Below, piece by piece: positions 1,959 through 44,470 of a stretch of 60,753 bases of DNA. Made by a program: the position numbers and the translations under genes. This DNA comes from Saprospiraceae bacterium. Its GTDB lineage: Bacteria; Bacteroidota; Bacteroidia; Chitinophagales; Saprospiraceae. How positions within the stretch are numbered: the stretch's first letter is position 1; each line of letters begins with the position of its first letter. Below the pieces are notes generated by a model. The model saw only the letters and a list, made by a program, of their open reading frames with translations. It had not been told where the DNA came from and ran no database searches. The stretch covers positions 1-60,753 of the forward strand of contig JALHOZ010000025.1 in NCBI GenBank assembly GCA_022842725.1, written 5' to 3'.

Positions 1959-3473
1959 ATGATGAGAATACAAATATTTGTCATTTTCATCCTTTGGATT
2001 GTGACCCTGCCATACGGCAGGGCACAATCCAAATATGACTATACCTGGATATTGGGGTATGAATTTACTACATTTGATAAAGGAGGTTTTGACGATGCCG
2101 CAGAAGGTATGATCCTCAATTTTAATCAATCACCTCCCCTATTAAATAAAAAACCAATCCCTAACGGATTATGGTCATCAGCTGTTTTAAGTAACTCTGA
2201 AACAGGGCAACTTATGTTTTACACCAATGGATGCAGGATCTTCAATAAAAACCATGAGACCATGACCGGAGGAGACAGTATCAATCCCGGAGTCCAGTTT
2301 ACCTATTTTTGTAATGAAGGACCATCAAGTTATTATAGTGACTTTAATGGAAATCTCGCCTTGCCCTGGCCGGGGACTTTAAACAAAAACAAATATATTT
2401 TATTCACCAGGCCTAAAAATTTGTCATCTCCATCTATTGAAAAGATTTTATATCACATCATAGACATGGATACATCAGATAGTTTGGGAAGAGTCATACA
2501 AAAAAATGTAGAAATTTTTAAAAGTAATGAATTAGCATTAATTTCTCTTCAGGCTTGCAAACATCAAAACGGCAGGGATTGGTGGATTTTATTTTGGGAG
2601 CGGCACCGACCCGAATATCACGTCCTGCTCCTCGACGAAAACGGACCAAGATACAGCCATTCGGCTAACATAGGTTCCGTTGGTCCTTCTTCTATAGGAC
2701 AGGCTTGTTTCAGTCCGGACGGCAGCCAATATATCTGGTTTGATCATACAAAAGGTTTGGTACTTTATGATTTTGACCGGCAGACCGGGACTTTATCAAG
2801 ACCCCGGCATAAAATCATCTTACCGTATTATCAATATGGTGACGGAGGCGTGAGTTTTTCTCCCTCAGGCAGATTTGTATATCTTTCCTCAAGACAAGAA
2901 CTTTTTCAATTGGACACCTGGGAGGAGGACTTTGACAAAGCATTTACCCTGATTGATACCATCAATTTTGTCACTTTTGTTGGCATACCTTTGGATTTTT
3001 CAAACAGCATGTTGGCACCAGATTGTAAGATATATATCAGCACTTCGTTTACATGGTTTTTTTATCATGTCATCCACCATCCGGATGAAAAAGGGGCTGC
3101 CTGCGGACTTAAAAAAATGGATCTTGAGCTGCCCTGGCCTAATAGCAACAGTGCGGTACCCAATATGGTACACTACCGTATGGATGAGGAGGAGATTTGT
3201 GATCGCAGTCTTACTTACCTCTTTCCGGAGGAGTGGTATCAATACAAAAAGGTCAAAATCTACCCCAACCCTGCTTACGACCGACTACACATAGAGGCCG
3301 AAGGTGACGTCACAGTCAGTATGATCAACATAGCCGGAGAGACAGTAATACGCACCTCTGTGATCGACAAAAGCTCCATCGACATCTCTACCCTGCCGGC
3401 AGGTATCTATTTTGTGAGGATAGAAGGCACAGCTTATCTTCATACGCAGGTAAATAAACTCATTAAATTGTAA
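1959..3473 (+). CDS. Secreted T9SS-sorted propeller-like protein, copy 1
   Basis: A 504-residue secreted protein. Residues 1-22 form a signal peptide (hydrophobic VFIILWIV-type core, cleavage near GRAQS). The middle holds WD/propeller-like blades (QACFSPDGSQYIWFD about 245, GGVSFSPSGRFVYLS about 300). From about residue 430 there is a type A type IX secretion sorting domain: YPNPAYDRL, then LPAGIYFVRI and a basic end LIKL. It is therefore predicted to cross the outer membrane and be attached to or released from the surface. Function unknown; no catalytic motif was seen. No promoter could be placed directly before it, because the preceding DNA is the remnant unit. Confidence 0.88.
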   Translation: MMRIQIFVIFILWIVTLPYGRAQSKYDYTWILGYEFTTFDKGGFDDAAEGMILNFNQSPPLLNKKPIPNGLWSSAVLSNSETGQLMFYTNGCRIFNKNHETMTGGDSINPGVQFTYFCNEGPSSYYSDFNGNLALPWPGTLNKNKYILFTRPKNLSSPSIEKILYHIIDMDTSDSLGRVIQKNVEIFKSNELALISLQACKHQNGRDWWILFWERHRPEYHVLLLDENGPRYSHSANIGSVGPSSIGQACFSPDGSQYIWFDHTKGLVLYDFDRQTGTLSRPRHKIILPYYQYGDGGVSFSPSGRFVYLSSRQELFQLDTWEEDFDKAFTLIDTINFVTFVGIPLDFSNSMLAPDCKIYISTSFTWFFYHVIHHPDEKGAACGLKKMDLELPWPNSNSAVPNMVHYRMDEEEICDRSLTYLFPEEWYQYKKVKIYPNPAYDRLHIEAEGDVTVSMINIAGETVIRTSVIDKSSIDISTLPAGIYFVRIEGTAYLHTQVNKLIKL

Positions 3474-3478
3474 TCTTC

Positions 3479-4993
3479 ATGATGAGAATACAAATATTTG
3501 TCATTTTCATCCTTTGGATTGTGACCCTGCCATACGGCAGGGCACAATCCAAATATGACTATACCTGGATATTGGGGTATGAATTTACTACATTTGATAA
3601 AGGAGGTTTTGACGATGCCGCAGAAGGTATGATCCTCAATTTTAATCAATCACCTCCCCTATTAAATAAAAAACCAATCCCTAACGGATTATGGTCATCA
3701 GCTGTTTTAAGTAACTCTGAAACAGGGCAACTTATGTTTTACACCAATGGATGCAGGATCTTCAATAAAAACCATGAGACCATGACCGGAGGAGACAGCA
3801 TCAATCCCGGAGTCCAGTTTACCTATTTTTGTAATGAAGGACCATCAAGTTATTACAGCAATTTTAATGGAAATCTCGCCTTGCCCTGGCCGGGAGTTCA
3901 AAACAAGAATAAATACATTCTTTTTACAAGACCTAAAAGTTTATCAGACCCTTTTATGCAATCTATATTATACCATATCATTGATATGGAAACACCGGAT
4001 AGTTTGGGTGTTGTTGCTCAAAAGAATGTTAAAGTTTTTAAAGGTCAAAATTTAGCTTCTATTTCTTTACAAGCCTGCAAACATCAAAACGGCAGGGATT
4101 GGTGGATTTTGTTTTGGGAGCGGCACCGGCCTGAATACCACGTCCTGCTACTTGATGAAAACGGACCAAGATACAGTCATTCCCGAACAATTGGCACTAT
4201 AGGACCATCCACTATTGGCCAGGCTTGTTTCAGTCCGGATGGCAGTCAATATATCTGGTTTGACCATACCAAAGGTCTGGTTCTTTATGATTTTGACCGG
4301 CAGACCGGGACACTCTCAAGACCCAGACATAAAATCATCCTACCTTATTATGAATATGGAGTTGGAGGCGTTAGTTTTTCGCCTTCGGGTAGATTCGTTT
4401 ATTTGTCTGCAAGACAAGAACTTTTTCAATTGGACACCTGGGAGGAGGACTTTGACCAGGCATTTACCCTGATTGATACCATCAATTTTGTCACTTTTGT
4501 TGGCATACCTTTGGATTTTTCAAACAGTATGTTGGCACCGGATTGTAAGATTTATATCAGCACTTCGTTTACATGGTTTTTTTATCATGTCATCCACCAT
4601 CCGGATGAAAAAGGGACTGCCTGCGGCCTTAAAAAAATGGATCTGGAGCTTCCCTGGCCCAATAGTAACAGCTTTGTTCCAAATATGGTCCACTATCGTA
4701 TGGATGAGGAGGAGATTTGTGATCGTAGCCTTACTTCCCTCTTTCCGGAGGAGTGGTATCATTCTAATAAGGTCAAAATCTACCCCAACCCGGCTTATGA
4801 CAGGCTGTACATAGAGGCCGAAGGTGATGTCACAATCAACATGATCAACATAGCAGGAGAGACAGTCGTACGCACTTCTGTGATCGATAAAAGTGCCATA
4901 GACATCTCAACCCTACCTCCCGGTGTCTATTTCGTCAGGATAGAAGGGGCTGTTTATGCTCAACCACAGGTTTTGAAACTTATCAAATTGTAA
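3479..4993 (+). CDS. Secreted T9SS-sorted propeller-like protein, copy 2
   Basis: Paralogue of the preceding gene with identical length (504 aa) and the same signal peptide and first 130 or so residues. Differences concentrate in residues 130-190 (for example GVQNKNKYILF against GTLNKNKYILF, and SLSDPFMQS against NLSSPSIEK) and in the last 20 residues (GAVYAQPQVLKLIKL). The sorting domain is intact. With a 5-base spacer it is very likely read on the same transcript as copy 1. Confidence 0.88.
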   Translation: MMRIQIFVIFILWIVTLPYGRAQSKYDYTWILGYEFTTFDKGGFDDAAEGMILNFNQSPPLLNKKPIPNGLWSSAVLSNSETGQLMFYTNGCRIFNKNHETMTGGDSINPGVQFTYFCNEGPSSYYSNFNGNLALPWPGVQNKNKYILFTRPKSLSDPFMQSILYHIIDMETPDSLGVVAQKNVKVFKGQNLASISLQACKHQNGRDWWILFWERHRPEYHVLLLDENGPRYSHSRTIGTIGPSTIGQACFSPDGSQYIWFDHTKGLVLYDFDRQTGTLSRPRHKIILPYYEYGVGGVSFSPSGRFVYLSARQELFQLDTWEEDFDQAFTLIDTINFVTFVGIPLDFSNSMLAPDCKIYISTSFTWFFYHVIHHPDEKGTACGLKKMDLELPWPNSNSFVPNMVHYRMDEEEICDRSLTSLFPEEWYHSNKVKIYPNPAYDRLYIEAEGDVTINMINIAGETVVRTSVIDKSAIDISTLPPGVYFVRIEGAVYAQPQVLKLIKL

Positions 4994-4998
4994 TCTTT

Positions 4999-6513
4999 AT
5001 GATGAGAATACAAATATTTGTCATTTTCATCCTTTGGATTGTGACCCTGCCATACGGCAGGGCACAATCCAAATATGACTATACCTGGATATTGGGGTAT
5101 GAATTTACTACATTTGATAAAGGAGGTTTTGACGATGCCGCAGAAGGTATGATCCTCAATTTTAATCAATCACCTCCTCTATTAAATAAAAAACCAATCC
5201 CTAACGGATTATGGTCATCAGCTGTTTTAAGTAACTCTGAATCAGGGCAACTTATGTTTTACACCAACGGATGCAGGATCTTCAATAAAAACCATGAGAC
5301 CATGACCGGAGGAGACAGCATCAATCCCGGAATCCAGTTTACCTATTTTTGTAATGAAGGACCATGGAGTTATTACAGTGATTTTAATGGAATTCTCGCC
5401 TTGCCCTGGCCGGGGACGATAAACAAAAACAAATATATTTTATTTACCCGTCCTAAAAGCTTATCTGACCCATTTATCCAATCCATATTGTATCACATTA
5501 TTGATATGGATACACCAGATAGTTTGGGTGCTGTTGCTCAAAAGAATGTTGAAGTTTTCAAAGGTAAAGATCTTGGATATATTTCTTTACAAGCCTGCAA
5601 ACATCAAAACGGGAGAGATTGGTGGATTTTGTTTTGGGAGCGGCACAGGCCTGAATACCACGTCCTGCTACTTGACGAAAACGGCCCCCGTTTCAGTCAT
5701 ACATCTACCATCGGCCAAATAGGACCATATTCTATTGGTCAGGCTTGTTTCAGTCCGAATGGCAGCCAATATATCTGGTTTGACCATACCAAAGGATTGG
5801 TCCTTTATGATTTTGATCGGCAGACTGGAACACTCACAAGACCCAGACACAAAATCATCCTACCTTATTATGAATATGGAGTTGGAGGTGTAAGTTTTTC
5901 GCCTTCGGGCAGATTTGTATATCTGTCTGCAAGACAAGAGTTGTTTCAATTGGACACTTGGGAGGAGGACTTTGACCAGGCTTTTACCCTGATTGATACC
6001 ATCAATTTTGTCACTTATGTAGGAATTCCTCTAAACTTTTCAAACAGTATGTTGGCTCCGGATTGTAAAATATATATCAGTACTGGTTTTACCTGGTTTT
6101 TTTATCATGTTATCCACCATCCGGATGAAAAAGGGGCTGCCTGCGGACTTAAAAAAATGGATTTGGAGTTTCCCTGGCCCAATAGTAACAGCTTTGTTCC
6201 AAATATGGCCCACTACCGTATGGATGAGGAGGAGATTTGTGATCGCAGTCTTACTTCCCTCTTTCCGGAGGAGTGGTATCAATCCAATAAGGTCAAAATC
6301 TACCCCAATCCGGCTTATGACAGGCTGTACATAGAGGCCGAAGGTGACGTCACAATCAATATGATCAACATAGCCGGAGAGATAGTCGTACGCACCTCTG
6401 TGATCGACAAAAGCTCCATCGACATCTCTACCCTGCCGGCAGGTGTCTATTTTGTGAGGATAGAAGGCCCAGCTTATCTTCATCCGCAGGTAAATAAACT
6501 CATTAAATTGTAA
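4999..6513 (+). CDS. Secreted T9SS-sorted propeller-like protein, copy 3
   Basis: Third 504-residue paralogue. It is closest to copy 2 in the variable middle (SLSDPFIQS) but its C-terminal end (LHPQVNKLIKL) is like copy 1 and the upstream remnant, which again points to recombination between units. Signal peptide, propeller-like FSPNG/FSPSG strands and sorting domain are intact. Directly after its TAA the sequence switches to a copy of the metallopeptidase gene end. Confidence 0.88.
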   Translation: MMRIQIFVIFILWIVTLPYGRAQSKYDYTWILGYEFTTFDKGGFDDAAEGMILNFNQSPPLLNKKPIPNGLWSSAVLSNSESGQLMFYTNGCRIFNKNHETMTGGDSINPGIQFTYFCNEGPWSYYSDFNGILALPWPGTINKNKYILFTRPKSLSDPFIQSILYHIIDMDTPDSLGAVAQKNVEVFKGKDLGYISLQACKHQNGRDWWILFWERHRPEYHVLLLDENGPRFSHTSTIGQIGPYSIGQACFSPNGSQYIWFDHTKGLVLYDFDRQTGTLTRPRHKIILPYYEYGVGGVSFSPSGRFVYLSARQELFQLDTWEEDFDQAFTLIDTINFVTYVGIPLNFSNSMLAPDCKIYISTGFTWFFYHVIHHPDEKGAACGLKKMDLEFPWPNSNSFVPNMAHYRMDEEEICDRSLTSLFPEEWYQSNKVKIYPNPAYDRLYIEAEGDVTINMINIAGEIVVRTSVIDKSSIDISTLPAGVYFVRIEGPAYLHPQVNKLIKL

Positions 6514-32805: not shown

Positions 32806-32834
32806 GTCAAATCAAATTTTACTTACAAAATATA

Positions 32835-33196
32835 AGGTTTTTTTATGAAAAAAATATTATTTCCCCATCCAAAACACCACAAACAATTTTATTCCGTTAT
32901 CATGTTATTTTTTTTATAAATAAAGAAATTATATTTTGTGTATACGTCATCACACAAAATCAGTAAAAGTTACATGTGGACATGGAATAAAAAAAATATT
33001 TCAAACTGCCAAATTTTGGCAGTGAGCGAATATATCTTTGTTCCGTTGATTTGATTCAAAGATACAAAAGGTGTTGTTGTACATCATTCTGACCATGCGG
33101 CCACATAGCAGAATATTTACAACCGGGGTGTACCCTTACCCGGCGGAATCATAAGTATGGGGAAGCGATGAAAAAGAGAGGGGGTAATATGTAAAA
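32835..33196 (+). repeat. Noncoding cassette-leader element, copy A
   Basis: About 360 bases that recur, at roughly 85 percent identity, at 36735-37087. Shared order: a short ATG frame MKKILFPHPKHH, a palindrome CTGCCAA-ATT-TTGGCAG (33006-33022), a -7 box TATCTTTG (33033-33040) exactly 10 bases later, an inverted CAAAGATA (33057-33064), and a leader of about 130 bases that is the best conserved part, including CCGGGG.GTACCCTTACCCGG, which can fold. All frames through the leader have stops or are short, so I read it as regulatory DNA plus an untranslated RNA leader or small RNA. Confidence 0.75.
33006..33040 (+). promoter_or_regulatory. Palindromic operator plus -7 box of cassette 1
   Basis: CTGCCAA-ATT-TTGGCAG followed after 10 bases by TATCTTTG. 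The palindrome would overlap the -33 region and could be bound by the HTH protein encoded at the cassette end. Confidence 0.5.
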
Positions 33197-33384
33197 ATTA
33201 AATACACAGTCTTAAATTTTAATGATCCTTATTTTTTAACAATGGATGCAAAAACATATGCATTACTTTAGTATTATATAAACACATCCTAATTAAAGTC
33301 GAATCAATATTTTTTTATTCACACCACAAACTTAAATTAACAACATGGTATAAAAAAATCTTCAATAAAAGGGCAAACCATCTC

Positions 33385-33528
33385 ATGAGATGGCACCTTA
33401 CATCCGATTTTAACTACCCAATTCCAAAAATTATAAAAAAAGGAGCCTACTTTGACCCATTTCGCGAAAAATGGAGTAAGCTCCCGACCGAAGAACTCGG
33501 AGAAACAAATGTAAGTTCTTTTTTTTAA
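33385..33528 (+). CDS. Small possible ORF, 47 residues
   Basis: A plus-strand frame between the leader element and the lipoprotein gene gives MRWHLTSDFNYPIPKIIKK followed by GAYFDPFREKWSKLPTEELGE. The composition is protein-like, and the frame remains open upstream to about 33228, without an earlier ATG. It has no counterpart in the second cassette. It may be a real small gene or the end of a lost one. Confidence 0.3.
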   Translation: MRWHLTSDFNYPIPKIIKKGAYFDPFREKWSKLPTEELGETNVSSFF

Positions 33529-33615
33529 AAATTGAATAAAAAATGGGTTAGTTTTTTTTTGTGTCTTTTTTGACACTTTGATTAATTAATTTTTAACATT
33601 TATAATATTTAAAAA

Positions 33616-35049
33616 ATGAAATATCTAAATTTTTCAAGCTATACCATAGCTTTTTTATTCGTTTTTTCCTGTTTGATCTATGTAGGATGTCAGAAAGAGG
33701 AACAAAAGAATGATATAAATAATTTTTCTGAACTTGAAAGCAGAAATTCAACTCCGGAAAATGGATGTAACTTGAATATTTCCAATGCCAGGATTGAGTT
33801 TGGCAAACTGTTGTATAACGCAATGGTTGAAGACATAGTATTATCAAATTATATCAAATCAAAAATGATTGAAGAGTTCAATACTAATTATTCCTTTTTA
33901 TACATTAAAGAAAGAAACCAAATTGTTCATTCCGGAAAAACTTTTGAACAATTATTAATTCAAAGCTCAAATATGCCCAGTCTTCAAGTCCAAACACAAA
34001 TCGATGACATAATTTGTAAAGATCCTTTGTTAACAATTTCTATGTCTGATGGTGACAATGTGAATGTTACAAACTGGACGAACACGATACCACAAATTGC
34101 AGCAGTAAAAGAGTGTATAGAAACTAAATACATTCTTTATGGCGCAAATTCACCCAATGGAATTGAGATGACCAATGATCCTGTAGCACCAACATTAAAT
34201 ATAATAAGCTCTGAAGTTTATTATTTGGTCAAACCTGACGGCACCACCAGCAAAATAAAAAAAATTGATGAATATATGCCATCCGGTCCAAGTATTACTT
34301 CCATTTTGAATTGTACAGTATTCAATAGTTCAGTTAGTAATTCAACTGTAAATACTTTCAATATTTGTGGAAATAGCTATAAGCTTTTTTACCATGATGA
34401 AATTTTACAAATGTATATCGACTGTTTTAATCTTAATACTCCGCCATATGTTAACGGAGATGGCCCAGGCGGTGGGGGTGGCGGACCAACCGGCGACCCA
34501 TGTACAAAACCATGTGCACGGGATTGTGAAACACTGGATGAGACATTAGTCAGGTACCGTATTAAAAATTGGCAGGTTTTTAAAGCCATTGCAAACAAAT
34601 TTTGGGAAAGATATTTTATTTTTCATGGAAAAATAATTGGAGCCATAAATTATTCTAACGGAGCTGCAAGTACACACCCCGGCATTTATGTTTCAGGAGT
34701 TCGTAAAAAGGGAGATTTATTGAACTGTAGTGGAGTCTGCACAGGAATATGGCAAACTCCAAATTATAGAATATGGCAGGATTGGGATGAGAGTAATTTT
34801 GGATCACCGTATTCGATTAGTTGGAGTGAAGAAGATAATGGAACTCAAACAATTGGTCTATCGGTTCCATACAGTACAAATTTTAAAGTTAAAATTGGTG
34901 GATTGGAAGTATCAACAACTTATGGTTTTACGGCTAATATATCCACAACAGCAGGCAGCACAGTATCATTAGGTGTTCAAGCTGTTTTTTATTGTGATCC
35001 GATCATGAAAGTAAATGATACAGGTTCATTACAATTCCAATGTAATTAA
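33616..35049 (+). CDS. Lipoprotein of unknown function (cassette 1)
   Basis: A 477-residue protein with a lipobox LIYVGC (Cys25), so it is anchored in the outer or inner membrane. Residues 30-280 form an unrecognised domain with scattered Cys; a Gly-rich hinge (GDGPGGGGGGPTGDPC, about 287-302) leads to a Cys-containing C-terminal domain (about 300-477: CTKPCARDCETL, HPGIYVSGVRKKGD, LNCSGVCTG) of beta character. No catalytic motif was recognised. First gene of a three-gene block ending in two beta-barrel proteins; it has no homologue in cassette 2. Confidence 0.75.
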   Translation: MKYLNFSSYTIAFLFVFSCLIYVGCQKEEQKNDINNFSELESRNSTPENGCNLNISNARIEFGKLLYNAMVEDIVLSNYIKSKMIEEFNTNYSFLYIKERNQIVHSGKTFEQLLIQSSNMPSLQVQTQIDDIICKDPLLTISMSDGDNVNVTNWTNTIPQIAAVKECIETKYILYGANSPNGIEMTNDPVAPTLNIISSEVYYLVKPDGTTSKIKKIDEYMPSGPSITSILNCTVFNSSVSNSTVNTFNICGNSYKLFYHDEILQMYIDCFNLNTPPYVNGDGPGGGGGGPTGDPCTKPCARDCETLDETLVRYRIKNWQVFKAIANKFWERYFIFHGKIIGAINYSNGAASTHPGIYVSGVRKKGDLLNCSGVCTGIWQTPNYRIWQDWDESNFGSPYSISWSEEDNGTQTIGLSVPYSTNFKVKIGGLEVSTTYGFTANISTTAGSTVSLGVQAVFYCDPIMKVNDTGSLQFQCN

Positions 35050-35116
35050 TTTTTATTTCAATATTCACTCCCGGTATAATAAAATTTTACCGGGAGTGAT
35101 TTATAAAAAAGTATAT

Positions 35117-35842
35117 ATGAAATTTTGGTTTTGCATTATCACATTATTAATTAACGTGGTTTATGGATTAAATGCACAAGAATCCATCAATAGGCACAGT
35201 ATTCTCTTTCATACAGGCCTGGCATTAGATGACGGCTTTGTTTATACAAACAATAATCTGCCTACTATTGGTTTAGGTTATAGTTACAAATTAAATAAAA
35301 CATTTTCCATTGATGCTAGTTTGTTTTCTGTTTATAAAAAATTAGGAGATCCAACCGTTTTTGGTTGGGAAGCTTTTAATATTATCACAAGAAATTCGAA
35401 TAGTTTATTCATATCGCAAGCTGATAGAGATAAGATCACTAATGTTGGGATTAAAGATTTAAATTCTGACGGACATGTTAAGTTTCTTCATGTACCTTTA
35501 AGTGTTTCACTAAATATACATCCTCTCAGAATTGGTCGCAGTACTCTTGGTTTTGCCATAGGTGCCACTGCTACTTATGGTTCCTACAAAGCATCAAGAG
35601 ATGAATTCACAATGAATATTACACTCAAAGATGGCACTGTATATGAAAATTTAACCTTTAAACAGGAAATAGAATCTCGCAATTTAGTTATCGGTGGTTC
35701 ATACTCTAAGCTCTATTATAGATATGACTTGAGTAAAAAAAATGCAATTCAACTGTCAATGCATTCGCTCGACTTCTTTTGGTCTTATAGAAATATTCTT
35801 GGCCACCATCTTTTGACCTTTGATTTTAATTCATCTTTTTAA
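35117..35842 (+). CDS. Outer-membrane beta-barrel-type protein (cassette 1)
   Basis: A 241-residue exported protein. I start at 35117 (MKFWFCIITLLINVV), where a normal signal peptide ending LNAQES begins; the longer frame from 35015 would add 34 residues overlapping the preceding gene. The mature part has alternating polar and nonpolar strands and ends in F (HHLLTFDFNSSF), as expected for an outer-membrane barrel of about 8 strands. It follows the lipoprotein by 67 bases, which include an inverted repeat (CTCCCGGTA/TACCGGGAG at 35068-35097), a possible attenuator. Confidence 0.7.
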   Translation: MKFWFCIITLLINVVYGLNAQESINRHSILFHTGLALDDGFVYTNNNLPTIGLGYSYKLNKTFSIDASLFSVYKKLGDPTVFGWEAFNIITRNSNSLFISQADRDKITNVGIKDLNSDGHVKFLHVPLSVSLNIHPLRIGRSTLGFAIGATATYGSYKASRDEFTMNITLKDGTVYENLTFKQEIESRNLVIGGSYSKLYYRYDLSKKNAIQLSMHSLDFFWSYRNILGHHLLTFDFNSSF

Positions 35843-35851
35843 TCTTTACTC

Positions 35852-36556
35852 ATGAAACATTATAAATTATTTATTTTCATTTCATTATTTATGATTATTT
35901 CTATAAATGTCAACTCCCAAAAAATACAACTCGAAGGATATGGAGGCCATTCCTATTTTCTTAAAAAAAATGCCGGTGGATATGATTTGGGCATCGGAAT
36001 CAACTATATATTAACAAAAACCTCTAAGATAGGAATCTCCTTAGGACACTCATATAATGATAGATCTCCTTTACCATCGGATCTTACGGATGCTAAAATT
36101 GTACTTAAAGAAGAATCCAACAGATTGCCGCTAGGAAATGGATTTTCTTCTTGGTTAGAAGACGATGCTTGGCCTAATATCAGATTAGAAGAACAACCCA
36201 ACAGATATTTTAGATTTAATATGGGTATACATTACACTTTTTCTAACCTAATAAAAAAAGATCACAACTTCATTGTATCTTTAGGTGCCATTATCAGTCA
36301 TAGAGATGAAAGTGAATTAATTAAAATAGTAGAAACATCAAAATTAAGAGGCCTCTTTTTAAGACCTACTGACGACCATTCTATTCCTATTTTCAGTTAT
36401 AATACTTACCTTGATGCCGGTTTAAAATGTGACTTTACGTATGTTTTTAAAAAATTCAAAGCCTTAGACTTGGGTTACAGATCATCGTTAATGATTTATC
36501 CAAAGTCAGGAGATATTATAATCAATAACGGATTGATAATCTCTTTATGCCCATAA
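35852..36556 (+). CDS. Outer-membrane beta-barrel-type protein (cassette 1)
   Basis: A 234-residue protein with a signal peptide (residues 1-22, ending NVNSQ) and amphipathic strands throughout (GIGINYILTKTSKIGISLGHSY, in parts; FRFNMGIHYTFSN; GLKCDFTYVFKKFKALDLGYRSS). It begins 9 bases after the previous gene, so they are cotranscribed. Function unknown; size fits small OmpW/PorT-like barrels, but I see no family signature. Confidence 0.7.
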   Translation: MKHYKLFIFISLFMIISINVNSQKIQLEGYGGHSYFLKKNAGGYDLGIGINYILTKTSKIGISLGHSYNDRSPLPSDLTDAKIVLKEESNRLPLGNGFSSWLEDDAWPNIRLEEQPNRYFRFNMGIHYTFSNLIKKDHNFIVSLGAIISHRDESELIKIVETSKLRGLFLRPTDDHSIPIFSYNTYLDAGLKCDFTYVFKKFKALDLGYRSSLMIYPKSGDIIINNGLIISLCP

Positions 36557-36584
36557 GTTTTGAGACAATTATTGACTTCGCTTT

Positions 36585-36713
36585 TGCAAAAAAGAAAAAA
36601 CATATTTTTTTGAAGAAGAGGTTAAATATGAATTCAGAATCACCGTCGAAAACGAAGATCTGATGAAAATAAAAGGAGGCGGTCAGGTTTGTCCGGAAGA
36701 GGAGGGAGAGTAG
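36585..36713 (+). pseudogene. 3' fragment of the HTH-IKGGG gene (cassette 1)
   Basis: An open fragment of 42 codons encodes CKKEKTYFFEEEVKYEFRIT-VENEDLMKIKGGG-QVCPEEEGE, nearly identical to the last part of the complete gene at 39530-39823. The HTH half is missing; homology starts abruptly at about 36581, 25 bases after the preceding stop. The third-position changes (GTC/GTT, AAA/AAG, GAA/GAG) show that it diverged while coding or recently after. Confidence 0.88.
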
Positions 36714-36734
36714 GAAGGCAATTTTATTAAAGAT

Positions 36735-37087
36735 AAGTTTTTTTATGAAAAAAATATTATTTCCTCATCCAAAACATCACCAATAATTTTATTCTGCTAT
36801 CAAGGAATTATTTTGTTAAATCAAAATTATATTATGTATATATGTCATTACACAAAATCGGTAAATACATTCCGTGAACATGGAATAAAAAAATATTTCA
36901 AACTGCCAATTTTTGGCAGTATGTGCACATACCTTTGTAAAGTTGATTTGATTCAAAGATACAAAAGGTGTTGTTGTACATCATGCTGACCATGAGGCCA
37001 CATAGCAGAATATTTACAACCGGGGAGTACCCTTACCCGGCGGAATCATAAGTATGAGGAAGCGATTAAAAAGAGAGGGGGTAATAT
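36735..37087 (+). repeat. Noncoding cassette-leader element, copy B
   Basis: Second copy of the element at 32835-33196. The palindrome is CTGCCAA-TTT-TTGGCAG (36903-36919) and the -7 box TACCTTTG (36930-36937), again at 10 bases. The arms are conserved while the spacer changed, which supports a selected palindrome. The leader ends 50 bases before the first gene of cassette 2, so it would be a 5' untranslated region of about 190 bases. The short frame MKKILFPHPKHH is kept with synonymous changes and then stops. Confidence 0.75.
36903..36937 (+). promoter_or_regulatory. Palindromic operator plus -7 box of cassette 2
   Basis: Same architecture as 33006-33040, with identical palindrome arms and spacing. 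Predicted to drive the genes 37138-39210. Confidence 0.5.
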
Positions 37088-37137
37088 GTTAGCATGGATT
37101 AGTGAAAAATAATTAGAACAATCCTTAACAAAAAGTC

Positions 37138-37869
37138 ATGCAAAGTAATTTAATTTCCTTATTTTTTATTTTACTAGTTACAACTTGCCATATAAATGGG
37201 CAAGTTGTAACTTTTGGATTTGGTCCAACTTATTTAATGGACAAAACAAAAGTTAGTTTACATCCGGAAATTCTTGGAAAAAGCAGTGGAAATGATGATT
37301 GGTTTTTAAATTTTAAATATATCCATTTTTTAAATACTAAATGGCAAATTTATGGAAGTTATACAAAATATCCAATTAGAACATATTACAATTTTAATAA
37401 TAATGGCAATGAAAGTGGAAGTCTTGGGTGGAGTGGTTCGAACGTAAAAAGGATAGATTTTGGACTGGTATATGATATATTTGATAAAAGTAATTTTATT
37501 GTAAATTTTAATTTAGGTATTGGGATTCAAAATTCAACTTCCAGAGATGTTGGTATTATAGGTAGTGAAGTACCTGATGGCATCAAGCCCGATAATTTTG
37601 AACTTTTGGAAGATATTGAAGCCTTTGCTTATTCCAGAACTCAAATAGTTCCAGTTATTGGTTTGAAATTTGGCTATGCATTTTGGGGTAGATTGGAGTT
37701 GTTTATGGATATTCAGCAGGTATTTGGTCATAAAATCATTCAAGAATTAAGGATGAGTTACACTTATAAAGGAATAGAACAACCACAAGCAATAAGTTAC
37801 TCAGATGGAACTGGTCGATTTTATGCATTAGGAATCGGGTATAGGTTTGTAAAGCCCAAGGAAAAATAA
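37138..37869 (+). CDS. Outer-membrane beta-barrel-type protein (cassette 2)
   Basis: A 243-residue protein with signal peptide (cleaved near CHINGQ) and repeated amphipathic strands (VVTFGFGPTYLMD, WQIYGSYTKYPIRTYYNF, IVPVIGLKFGYAFWGRLELFMDIQQVFG, quoted in parts). It ends GIGYRFVKPKEK. The size and pattern resemble small porin-like or OmpA-barrel proteins. First gene of a tight operon (spacers 8 and 1 bases). Confidence 0.7.
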   Translation: MQSNLISLFFILLVTTCHINGQVVTFGFGPTYLMDKTKVSLHPEILGKSSGNDDWFLNFKYIHFLNTKWQIYGSYTKYPIRTYYNFNNNGNESGSLGWSGSNVKRIDFGLVYDIFDKSNFIVNFNLGIGIQNSTSRDVGIIGSEVPDGIKPDNFELLEDIEAFAYSRTQIVPVIGLKFGYAFWGRLELFMDIQQVFGHKIIQELRMSYTYKGIEQPQAISYSDGTGRFYALGIGYRFVKPKEK

Positions 37870-37877
37870 TATTAAAC

Positions 37878-38570
37878 ATGCTTAAAAATAAAATGAACGT
37901 ATATACATTTCGTTTGGCTATTCTGATAATACAATTATTTGGAGGGCAGGTATACAGCCAATCTACCCATCAGGTAGAATTACGGTCAGGAATAATTTTT
38001 TTTGACAGCAAAGTAGCCAAAGGTGATTTCTTGGAAAGTGCCAGGGGCTGGGGAAGTCAGACTGATCTGACCTTTTTTAAATCTTTTGATATAAACAGAA
38101 AATTCAAGCCTGTTTTGGGTATCGGTTACACAAACTTTTTGTATTGGAACGTAGATTTTTTTGACTTATTACCTCAAGTTTTAGAACCTCCTTATTCTTA
38201 TGATTCTTTTGGAGGTGATTTTACATCACATTATTTAAATATTAAGTATGGTTTGTGTATAGACATATATAAAGAAAAATTAAAAACAAATATCATGGGA
38301 AGTCACTATATACTTCTGCACAAGGATTTACAAGGTTTTAACCAAAATCGTAGTTTTATGAATATTGATATTGGATTTACATATCAGTTAAGCAAAAAAT
38401 ACACATTGAGCCTTTCTACACCATTAACCATACATCCAATCGTTCAGGATCCTGTACAAAGAATTTTAAATCATGGTACTAATCCATATTTTGAAAGATT
38501 TGTTGAAATGAATGGCATCTTAATCGGCTTAATATACAGATTTCAAACATCTTCATCCTCTAAAAATTAA
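37878..38570 (+). CDS. Outer-membrane beta-barrel-type protein (cassette 2)
   Basis: A 230-residue protein; the signal peptide ends near QVYSQS, and Met1 or Met6 (37893) could be the start. The C-terminal half aligns with the next protein (LNIKYGLCIDIYKEKL...NRSFMNIDIGFTYQLSKKY against AIIKYGLSKRIYLDNL...RRAFTNAEVGLSYNINERF), so the two arose by duplication. No function known. Confidence 0.7.
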   Translation: MLKNKMNVYTFRLAILIIQLFGGQVYSQSTHQVELRSGIIFFDSKVAKGDFLESARGWGSQTDLTFFKSFDINRKFKPVLGIGYTNFLYWNVDFFDLLPQVLEPPYSYDSFGGDFTSHYLNIKYGLCIDIYKEKLKTNIMGSHYILLHKDLQGFNQNRSFMNIDIGFTYQLSKKYTLSLSTPLTIHPIVQDPVQRILNHGTNPYFERFVEMNGILIGLIYRFQTSSSSKN

Positions 38571-38571
38571 T

Positions 38572-39210
38572 ATGATGAAACTTCTGACATTTTTAATCCA
38601 TATTATTGTCTTCCTGATACAAAGCCAATTCTCTTATACACAGGATTATTATCAAATAACATTTAGATATAATATTTTAAATCATGTGCCCGGCAACTTA
38701 CCCAAAGAACTAAAAAATAATTGGCAAACATCCAGTAACACATTTGAACTTATTTTAGATAAAACATTGACTATTAATGATCACTTCAACCTGAATGCCG
38801 GATTAGGTTTTTCTGTTTTTCGATTTTCAAATTCTAATCTGTTTTCTCTTGACAATATCAGGCAAAGTAACTATGCTATTATAAAATATGGTTTAAGCAA
38901 AAGAATTTATTTAGATAATTTATTCCTTAATCTGGATATTTTACATTATGTGTTAGCCCGTAAAGAAAAACAGGATGATAATCAAAGAAGGGCTTTCACA
39001 AATGCCGAGGTGGGTCTCTCATACAACATAAACGAACGTTTCAAAATTTCATTCAGCAGTCCGTTTACATTGTACAGCATGTTTTTATTGAGAATAGGAA
39101 CCGGAAATATTGCCAACAATGAACCCATAACAAGATATAACAGTAAGGTGCGTAATTACGGGCTTAATTTTGGCTTTACATATACTTTTAAAAATAATCG
39201 GATTAATTGA
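38572..39210 (+). CDS. Outer-membrane beta-barrel-type protein (cassette 2)
   Basis: A 212-residue paralogue of the preceding protein, starting 1 base after its stop. Signal peptide MMKLLTFLIHIIVFLIQSQFS-type, then amphipathic strands ending YGLNFGFTYTFKNN. Function unknown. Last structural gene of cassette 2. Confidence 0.7.
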   Translation: MMKLLTFLIHIIVFLIQSQFSYTQDYYQITFRYNILNHVPGNLPKELKNNWQTSSNTFELILDKTLTINDHFNLNAGLGFSVFRFSNSNLFSLDNIRQSNYAIIKYGLSKRIYLDNLFLNLDILHYVLARKEKQDDNQRRAFTNAEVGLSYNINERFKISFSSPFTLYSMFLLRIGTGNIANNEPITRYNSKVRNYGLNFGFTYTFKNNRIN

Positions 39211-39529
39211 CAAAAGAGATATTAAAAATTACAAATAAAGGTGGCATACTTTACGCTAAACAATAACAAGAAGCCAATCTATTTATTTTAAAAAAGACAA
39301 CAGGCGACACAACATCAGATTTTTCATTAAATTGTTTTGAAATATTACTGAATCCGATGTACTTTTGAGATACCTGTATTAACTTCTTGTCCTGGAGTTG
39401 TCCCATTAACAACGACCATTGTTTTGACAATTCATCTGATTGTCTTGTACTATTATGTAAACTATGATTCCAGAAATAGAATCATAAAAATTGAAAGAAT
39501 TATTTTGAAAAAATTAAAAAAATATTATT
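39211..39529. other. Intergenic region before the HTH gene
   Basis: About 320 AT-rich bases with no credible gene. A 7-bp stem ATGATTC/GAATCAT at about 39463-39484 lies 45 bases before the HTH gene. Confidence 0.4.
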
Positions 39530-39823
39530 ATGAAATTAATGAACGAAGCACAATTGGTAGAGAGACTGTTTTGTCTGATCAAAAGAAAAGCTACAGGCAA
39601 CATAATTCAGCTGGCTGACAAACTCAACGTAAGTACACGAACGGTATACCGACTTATGACAGAAATGAAAGAATCCGGTCTCCCTGTCAAATATTGCAAA
39701 AAAGAAAAAACATACTACTTTGAAGAAGAGGTTAAATATGAATTCAGAATCACCGTTGGCAATGAAGATCTGATGAAGATAAAAGGAGGCGGTCAGGTTT
39801 GTCCGGAGGAGGAGGGAGAGTAA
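39530..39823 (+). CDS. Small HTH protein with double-glycine leader-like C-terminus
   Basis: A 97-residue protein. Residues 5-60 form a DeoR/HTH_11-type helix-turn-helix (QLADKLNVSTRTVYRLMTEM, the recognition part STRTVYRLM). After a short beta stretch (YYFEEEVKYEFRITV) the end reads NEDLMKIKGGG-QVCPEEEGE. The segment LMKIKGGG resembles the double-glycine cleavage site of Bacteroidota natural-product and bacteriocin leader peptides (..EEMKxIKGGG..C), leaving a 9-10-residue tail with one Cys. The fusion with a DNA-binding domain is unusual. A truncated second copy at 36585-36713 keeps exactly this tail. Confidence 0.8.
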   Translation: MKLMNEAQLVERLFCLIKRKATGNIIQLADKLNVSTRTVYRLMTEMKESGLPVKYCKKEKTYYFEEEVKYEFRITVGNEDLMKIKGGGQVCPEEEGE

Positions 39824-44351: not shown

Positions 44352-44366
44352 GTTTTTTCAAAAAAG

Positions 44367-44470
44367 AGTTGCGGAATCCGCAACTTTGTTTCCTTATTGG
44401 CATACTTTTTTTCAAAAAGTTGCGGAATCCGCAACTTTTCCTCAAAAAAGTTGCGATATTAGCAACTTTT
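44367..44470. repeat. Three related palindromes AAAAGTTGC...GCAACTTTT
   Basis: 44367-44385 (AGTTGCGGA-A-TCCGCAACT), 44415-44439 (the same core with AAAA/TTTT flanks) and 44446-44470 (AAAAGTTGC-gatatta-GCAACTTTT). The arms are kept while the centre of the third differs, which fits either repeated operator sites or small mobile palindromes. Located upstream of the small lipoprotein promoter. Confidence 0.7.

Follow-up and report, generated by a model that had tools for sequence, protein, structure and literature searches.

A duplicated control element in a Saprospiraceae contig as the probable promoter and leader of a winged helix–turn–helix cassette

Here we present a comparative analysis of a duplicated block at positions 32,820 to 39,823 of contig JALHOZ010000025.1 from a Saprospiraceae bacterium. 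The whole stretch analysed, 60,753 nucleotides (nt) long, is hereafter the window and its own genome is G000; L- and G-numbers label the loci and genomes compared. The block contains two copies of a noncoding element of about 360 base pairs (bp), which we interpret, with a probability of about 0.7, as a control cassette's regulated promoter together with its 5′ leader, the regulator of the cassette being a small winged helix–turn–helix (HTH) protein. Judged from sequence comparison, this protein very probably binds the operator of the element, since the geometry of operator and promoter recurs in a hold-out set of relatives and rules relating its residues to operator bases predict or fit the operators found there. 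The parts of the proposed cassette are as follows (aa, amino acids).

32828..33192, + strand: control element copy 1 (spacer, operator, promoter, leader RNA), from sequence comparison
33006..33022, + strand: putative operator 1, CTGCC-N7-GGCAG, CTGCCAAATTTTGGCAG, a perfect 5-7-5 repeat
33033..33040, + strand: predicted −7 promoter box 1, TATCTTTG, TAnnTTTG type
33115..33196, + strand: predicted leader RNA core 1, with P1 33124-33142, proposed pseudoknot P2 33133-33182 and P3 33149-33160
36584..36712, + strand: 3′ fragment of the HTH gene, 5′ half absent, 93% identical to the 3′ part of the complete gene
36729..37089, + strand: control element copy 2, from sequence comparison
36903..36919, + strand: putative operator 2, CTGCC-N7-GGCAG, CTGCCAATTTTTGGCAG, a perfect 5-7-5 repeat
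36930..36937, + strand: predicted −7 promoter box 2, TACCTTTG, TAnnTTTG type
37012..37093, + strand: predicted leader RNA core 2, from the alignment and covariance model
39530..39823, + strand: complete gene of the putative winged-HTH regulator (Pfam HTH_11), 97 aa, with the C-terminal Gly-Gly tail LMKIKGGGQVCPEEEGE

A sequence-only reading of this DNA had described two adjacent blocks of one plan, each with a 360-bp element bearing an operator-like palindrome and a promoter, and an HTH gene, complete at 39530, with a leader-peptide-like tail. These observations are borne out. The element copies are 88% identical overall (93% in a 203-nt 3′ block and 79% in the 5′ block), and each has the 5-7-5 inverted repeat with the TAnnTTTG box 10 bp further on; one HTH gene is complete, with the Gly-Gly motif at its end, and one copy is truncated at its 5′ side. 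The truncated copy sits immediately before element copy 2; element copy 1 has no such fragment on its 5′ side, and the complete gene has no element on its 3′ side. No third element copy was found in G000, either by nucleotide search or with the RNA covariance model, and in phage and plasmid records blastn found no match to the element. The upstream neighbours of the block are a nucleotidyltransferase/HepT pair (Pfam).

Operator geometry and recognition residues

The HTH protein scores 28.5 bits against Pfam HTH_11 (PF08279; curated cut-off 25). A single-sequence structure prediction of modest quality gave a winged HTH with a hairpin (mean predicted local distance difference test score 65.8, and below 50 in the tail, residues 85–97), and sequence and fold searches of the PDB returned, among others, only generic winged-HTH matches (best Foldseek E 8e-3). 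A profile built from seven HTH sequences was searched against 398 genomes sampled from the family of the window; 90 of them, G000 included, gave matches, and 122 matches lie outside the window. The 29 best of these loci constitute the first set. From the remaining 93, 80 were fetched as a hold-out, leaving out 13 that were mostly low-scoring; 79 were usable, L208 being too short, and three of the 80 (in G006, G018 and G023) had earlier been inspected for their neighbours.

The operator of the relatives lies downstream of the HTH gene, in several loci within the 3′ end of the gene itself. An operator with TTTG 13–15 bp beyond it is present at 18 of the 29 first-set loci, 12 of them perfect (shuffled means 1.92 and 0.18), and at 34 of the 79 hold-out loci, 22 of them perfect (shuffled 6.65 and 0.50). 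The distance is exactly 14 bp in 16 of these 18 and 33 of these 34 cases, and both window copies share the family geometry, with TTTG 14 bp beyond the end of a perfect operator. TAnnTTTG is the −7 consensus of flavobacterial sigma-A as given in a passage of PMC9723704. The constant distance is suggestive of contact with the transcription machinery, which would be compatible with an activator or a repressor.

Comparison of about 100 relatives also suggests which amino acids of the HTH protein read which operator bases (residues are numbered as in the window protein). The rule for residue 41, derived from the first set and fixed before the hold-out, states that it is Arg if and only if arm base 5 is C. 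It held in all 22 perfect hold-out operators, a score reached in 0 of 20,000 permutations; when one mismatch was tolerated outside base 5, Arg accompanied C in 11 of 12 cases and other residues accompanied C in 0 of 20. Perfect operators of the first set pair residue 41 with base 5 as R-C (5), N-A (3), Q-A (2) and E-G (2). Residue 37 (Arg, Ser or Ala with TGC, TCC or TCT) agrees in 21 of 22 perfect hold-out operators (0 of 20,000 permutations), with three exceptions among 12 in the first set. For residue 36, Glu accompanies C and Arg accompanies G at base 1 in all 15 hold-out cases (8 of 20,000 permutations), with one exception among the 11 Glu and Arg cases of the first set. The Arg and Ser parts of the residue-37 rule were suggested by the first set; its Ala part, like the whole residue-36 rule, was formulated once the hold-out had been seen, so that both are fits, not predictions. 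The window protein and its operators agree with the rules at residues 37 and 41.

The leader RNA

A blastn search of 298 same-family genomes returned L004, L014 and L005 as strong relatives of the 3′ core, together with weak matches at L006–L012 and L015 (E 1e-4 to 1e-3). A same-genus search added L027, and a fifth relative, L038, was found through its context, by reading upstream of Gly-Gly peptides that stand behind an HTH relative. The resulting seven-sequence alignment supports a helix P1, a pseudoknot P2 and a hairpin P3: 98.8% of 84 cells are paired and four pairs are changed on both sides. Covariation was 0.310 against 0.177; none of 500 shuffles reached 0.310, and versions slid along the alignment gave at most 0.131. 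Within the 203-nt block the two window copies differ at 15 positions, of which a single one falls in a helix (33160) and converts U-G to U-A.

The covariance model gave nine matches in 6 of the 398 genomes, namely the seven sequences from which it was built, L066 in another genus, and L065 in G024. The last, which has no peptide behind it and a coding-like sequence upstream, was discarded as a chance match, as was L026 (Omnitrophota), one of four loci in a pattern scan of genome contigs, whose surroundings are unrelated; the same scan of viral contigs gave no locus. We also dismissed, on inspection by eye, the possibility that the RNA core is coding, as window and relatives have different frames and the frame used by the relatives contains a stop in L004. 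A descriptor consisting of the P1 stem and the downstream purine-rich strand matched 15 of 31 leaders and 113 of 3,100 shuffles, a count in which the L004 leader was mis-cut and the matches at L082, L087 and L102 may fall outside the leader; P1 and P2 were paired in all but one cell and hardly varied.

The leader RNA might itself be the main device, a riboswitch- or attenuator-like pseudoknot to which the HTH gene is adjacent by coincidence. The RNA core does occur at L046, L023 and L024 with no adjoining gene for a Gly-Gly-tailed HTH protein, the upstream divergent gene there resembling, by eye, an XRE-type regulator. The model of DUF805b RNA, a described family, also matches at 4 of 19 related loci scanned, each time at the leader (L042/L077, L082, L029 and L099), and DUF805b-like RNAs in G000 precede varied genes. 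However, the covariation of HTH residues with operator bases is most simply explained by binding, and RNA and HTH protein may act jointly. We regard it as unlikely that the RNA is the main device.

Peptide-export operons and the exported proteins of the window

All six true RNA-core matches outside the window lie directly before a gene for a Gly-Gly-leader peptide (five of five if L038, found by context, is set aside). These peptides were recognised by eye; among four scanned with NCBIfam, one gave weak leader-family matches, under the cut-off. A profile search for the element had been proposed in the sequence-only reading with the expectation of small beta-barrel genes behind it. Relatives of its RNA core do recur, at these six loci, several of them operons for ribosomally synthesized and post-translationally modified peptides (RiPPs) with a C39-peptidase exporter, and the genes that follow are peptide genes, not beta-barrel genes. 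At 23 of the 29 first-set loci, exporter, HlyD or ATP-grasp genes lie on the same strand within the locus, and a Gly-Gly peptide is found within 900 nt at 20 of 29, compared with 16 of 325 random control positions. The Gly-Gly tail of the HTH protein is invariant across the seven aligned proteins, with the residues beyond it free to vary, and by a looser test is present in 27 of the 29. In the hold-out, a Gly-Gly peptide follows 9 of the 23 HTH proteins with the tail and 3 of the 56 without it.

One cluster headed by such a peptide gene, in G147 (C82), runs in the order Gly-Gly peptide, 338-aa protein, grasp-with-spasm ATP-grasp (224.5 bits, just below the cut-off of 230), SPASM protein (272.3 bits, cut-off 175), C39-peptidase ATP-binding cassette (ABC) exporter and HlyD. 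In G300 the grasp-with-spasm ATP-grasp match (L049, 8492-9480) is divided over two reading frames. At L040 (G022, 1-1813), near-identical Gly-Gly peptides with similar leaders flank the HTH gene, a duplication like that of the window.

The genes that follow HTH relatives sharing this operator geometry encode Gly-Gly peptides, lipoprotein-type proteins and other signal-bearing proteins. A lipoprotein-type gene takes the place of the Gly-Gly peptide at L093, L098 and L100; the first two have a perfect operator and an HTH gene with the Gly-Gly tail, and the HTH protein of L100 lacks the tail. The 22 perfect hold-out operators precede a signal- or lipoprotein-like open reading frame (ORF) in 16 cases, a Gly-Gly peptide in one and another ORF in three, with no ORF in reach in two. 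A crude export classifier, which favours longer ORFs and so skips some Gly-Gly peptides in the first set, was positive for 16 of 20 hold-out operators, against 80 of 172 control gene starts taken from other loci (p 0.008) and 40 of 300 random positions.

The exported-type genes of the window are the following.

33616..35049, + strand: lipoprotein-like protein, 477 aa, N-terminus judged by eye; sub-threshold fn3 match only in Pfam, none in NCBIfam
35015..35842, + strand: predicted exported protein A, 275 aa, true start maybe further in; no Pfam or NCBIfam family
35852..36556, + strand: predicted exported protein B, 234 aa; no Pfam or NCBIfam family
37138..37869, + strand: predicted exported protein C, 243 aa, starting 45 nt behind leader core 2
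37878..38570, + strand: predicted exported protein D, 230 aa; D/E relatives in other genomes
38572..39210, + strand: predicted exported protein E, 212 aa, a paralogue of D

The N-termini of all six (33616, 35015, 35852, 37138, 37878 and 38572) are of lipoprotein or signal type as judged by eye, in keeping with part of the earlier description of secreted lipoprotein and beta-barrel genes; the beta-barrel part is unproven. Pfam gave no match above cut-off for any of the six, and NCBIfam none for the five scanned (38572 lay outside the scan). The earlier observation that element and regulator are kept between the blocks while the surface proteins differ agrees with the comparison of genes between blocks, which yielded a single weak match (35015/37878, E 0.03). 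Proteins D and E are 27% identical (E 1e-17), and the C-terminal 45 aa of protein C are 53% identical to a stretch adjoining D-like genes in L127. D/E relatives occur in 10 other genomes among the 398 searched, in tandem and with a lipoprotein-type gene in front at L125 and L127. Among the 13 regions fetched around them, none had an HTH relative, one (L128) had an operator-like match, and two (L123 and L133) matched the exporter reference with ABC-transporter-type sequences.

Several repeats were seen in passing. Between leader 1 and the lipoprotein gene (33350-33530) lie a long imperfect hairpin, by eye, and a 47-aa ORF; right behind the lipoprotein gene (35056-35108) is an inverted repeat with 25-nt arms (80%), perhaps a terminator. 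Elsewhere in the window, 1959-6513 holds a tandem triplication, in which three successive ORFs of 504 aa share their first 60 residues and differ slightly at the C-terminus, and an intergenic stretch (44363-44469) holds three copies of a 25-nt palindrome of the AAAGTTGCGGAATCCGCAACTTT type, the third 80% like the first.

The block might instead be a decayed RiPP locus, in which the element copies and HTH pieces are remnants of a vanished Gly-Gly-peptide cluster, with unrelated surface genes beside them and nothing under control any longer. The truncated HTH copy, the 420-nt gap between leader core 1 and the first long ORF, and the D/E relatives found elsewhere without the cassette would all fit such a history. 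So would the lack of a convincing small Gly-Gly ORF nearby: among ATG ORFs of 32820-39823 the only candidate precursor is a 31-aa ORF, out of frame inside gene C (37352-37447) and judged to be chance. In G000, furthermore, neither a C39 peptidase (PF03412; present in 1 of 10 genus genomes) nor a grasp-with-spasm ligase (TIGR04192; present in 2 of 10) was found, absences that are provisional because the assembly is 95.5% complete. Decay does not, however, sit well with two perfect operators at the exact spacing, two intact promoter boxes and a complete HTH gene, nor with the change at 33160, the only helix difference between the copies, which keeps the pairing. L093 and L098 show, moreover, that a Gly-Gly-tailed HTH gene with a perfect operator can stand before a lipoprotein-type gene in other genomes as well. 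We consider decay rather unlikely.

That the repeats chiefly serve homologous exchange of the surface genes between them appears highly improbable. Direct repeats do flank differing genes here, and the arrangement at L040 is similar; yet only two element copies were found in the genome, no recombinase was noticed by eye among the listed ORFs, and operator and RNA account for the sequence constraint.

Other results weigh against a regulated promoter and leader under HTH control. The covariation of recognition helix and operator bases is not independent of descent: a 56-column tree, itself poorly resolved, shows five changes at base 5, and only one independent base-5 pair remains on its well-supported branches. 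Six of the 29 first-set loci are themselves rows of the HTH profile. An operator of this kind was not found at 11 of 29 first-set and 45 of 79 hold-out loci, and only 23 of the 79 hold-out, lower-scoring HTH proteins carry the Gly-Gly tail. For the RNA, P1 is invariant and P2 has one two-sided change, so that the covariation rests mainly on P3, and two of five RNA measures lie nearer the shuffles (two-sided pairs, 24 of 500; further pair types, 174 of 500). Single-strand folding energies are unremarkable (z 0.81 and −1.09), the former value belonging to the copy 1 leader, the sole window leader folded and no more stable than its shuffles. Differences between the copies affect 1 of 40 functional and 14 of 163 other positions and are thus not significantly rarer in the former (p 0.31). 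The 420-nt gap behind leader core 1 and the incompleteness of the assembly count on the same side. We also grade our interpretation slightly lower on the ground that the hold-out itself served to complete two of the three residue rules.

In the cassette as we interpret it, the HTH protein, presumably a dimer, would bind the 5-7-5 repeat, which overlaps the −33 region and keeps a constant distance from TAnnTTTG, and would thereby switch transcription in one direction or the other. The transcript would start with the leader RNA, probably pseudoknotted, ahead of the first gene. In the closest relatives the cassette appears to be part of operons that encode Gly-Gly-leader (RiPP) peptides and a C39-peptidase exporter, and the HTH protein carries a similar Gly-Gly motif at its end; the window would hold this peptide control cassette in duplicate, placed before a lipoprotein-like gene and predicted outer-membrane or exported proteins that it may control. 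More speculatively, and to our minds doubtful, the Gly-Gly tail could be a substrate or ligand of the exporter's C39 peptidase, coupling transcription to free export capacity, and the window a derived case of an export-sensing switch, its protein-DNA code readable, that was transferred to surface-protein genes. The earlier proposal of control kept and effectors diversified stands in so far as regulator, promoter and leader are conserved while the following genes differ; the closest relatives, however, are peptide-export operons.

If this interpretation is right, a family of small regulators would be tied to a defined operator, a promoter and, near RiPP peptides, a leader RNA, with a residue-to-base code directly checkable by DNA-binding tests. 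DUF805b-type RNAs would gain one setting, and there would be a case in which the control of exported peptides seems to have been passed on to exported proteins of other kinds. Looking behind such HTH genes may also aid in finding precursor peptides.

Comparison with known systems

The sequence-only reading knew of no described system with these parts. RiPP/C39-exporter operons and the DUF805b RNA are in fact already described; for the combination of HTH gene, operator and leader, a literature search, with most subscription papers outside its reach, found no account. A study of Bacteroidales RiPP clusters (PMC10352776) reports, in the portion available to us, peptidase-containing ABC transporters (PCAT) with GG-motif precursors, as in our relatives, and mentions an HTH gene in one cluster; that portion contains no operator, leader RNA or GG-tailed regulator.

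The layout of the leader RNA is akin to that of DUF805b RNA (Rfam RF02914, clan CL00115), which likewise stands just before a gene and has a short GG..CC stem and a GAAAA loop followed by AGAGUAGG, an arrangement also seen at the L042 and L082 leaders; the pseudoknot in this layout is our reading and not part of the Rfam model. The window core differs in having a longer insert with hairpin P3. An Rfam scan of the window at gathering and low thresholds gave nothing credible: RF02914 has no window match at its gathering cut-off, copy 1 has none at E up to 5, and none of the nine G000 matches falls in the window. We do not assign the window RNA to the DUF805b family because the window itself fails to match that model. 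The nine G000 places (L052-L060), three above the Rfam cut-off, lie 12–52 nt before an ORF in eight cases; the RNAs are sometimes two in tandem, and the following ORFs include lipoprotein-type genes.

With HTH_11 regulators the window protein shares the Pfam match above cut-off, and it differs by its Gly-Gly tail; its relatives differ by an operator directly downstream of their own gene. The window departs from these relatives in turn, as no operator follows 39823 and operator 2 follows the truncated copy. Among the nearest known systems are the grasp-with-spasm RiPP clusters (graspetide type, TIGR04192/TIGR04193, with a C39 ABC exporter of the PCAT type and HlyD). Their precursor, ligase and exporter were not found in the window, nor the ligase and C39 peptidase in G000. 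The same leader RNA nevertheless stands before the precursor in G147 and G300, and in other genera HTH relatives stand behind the exporter.

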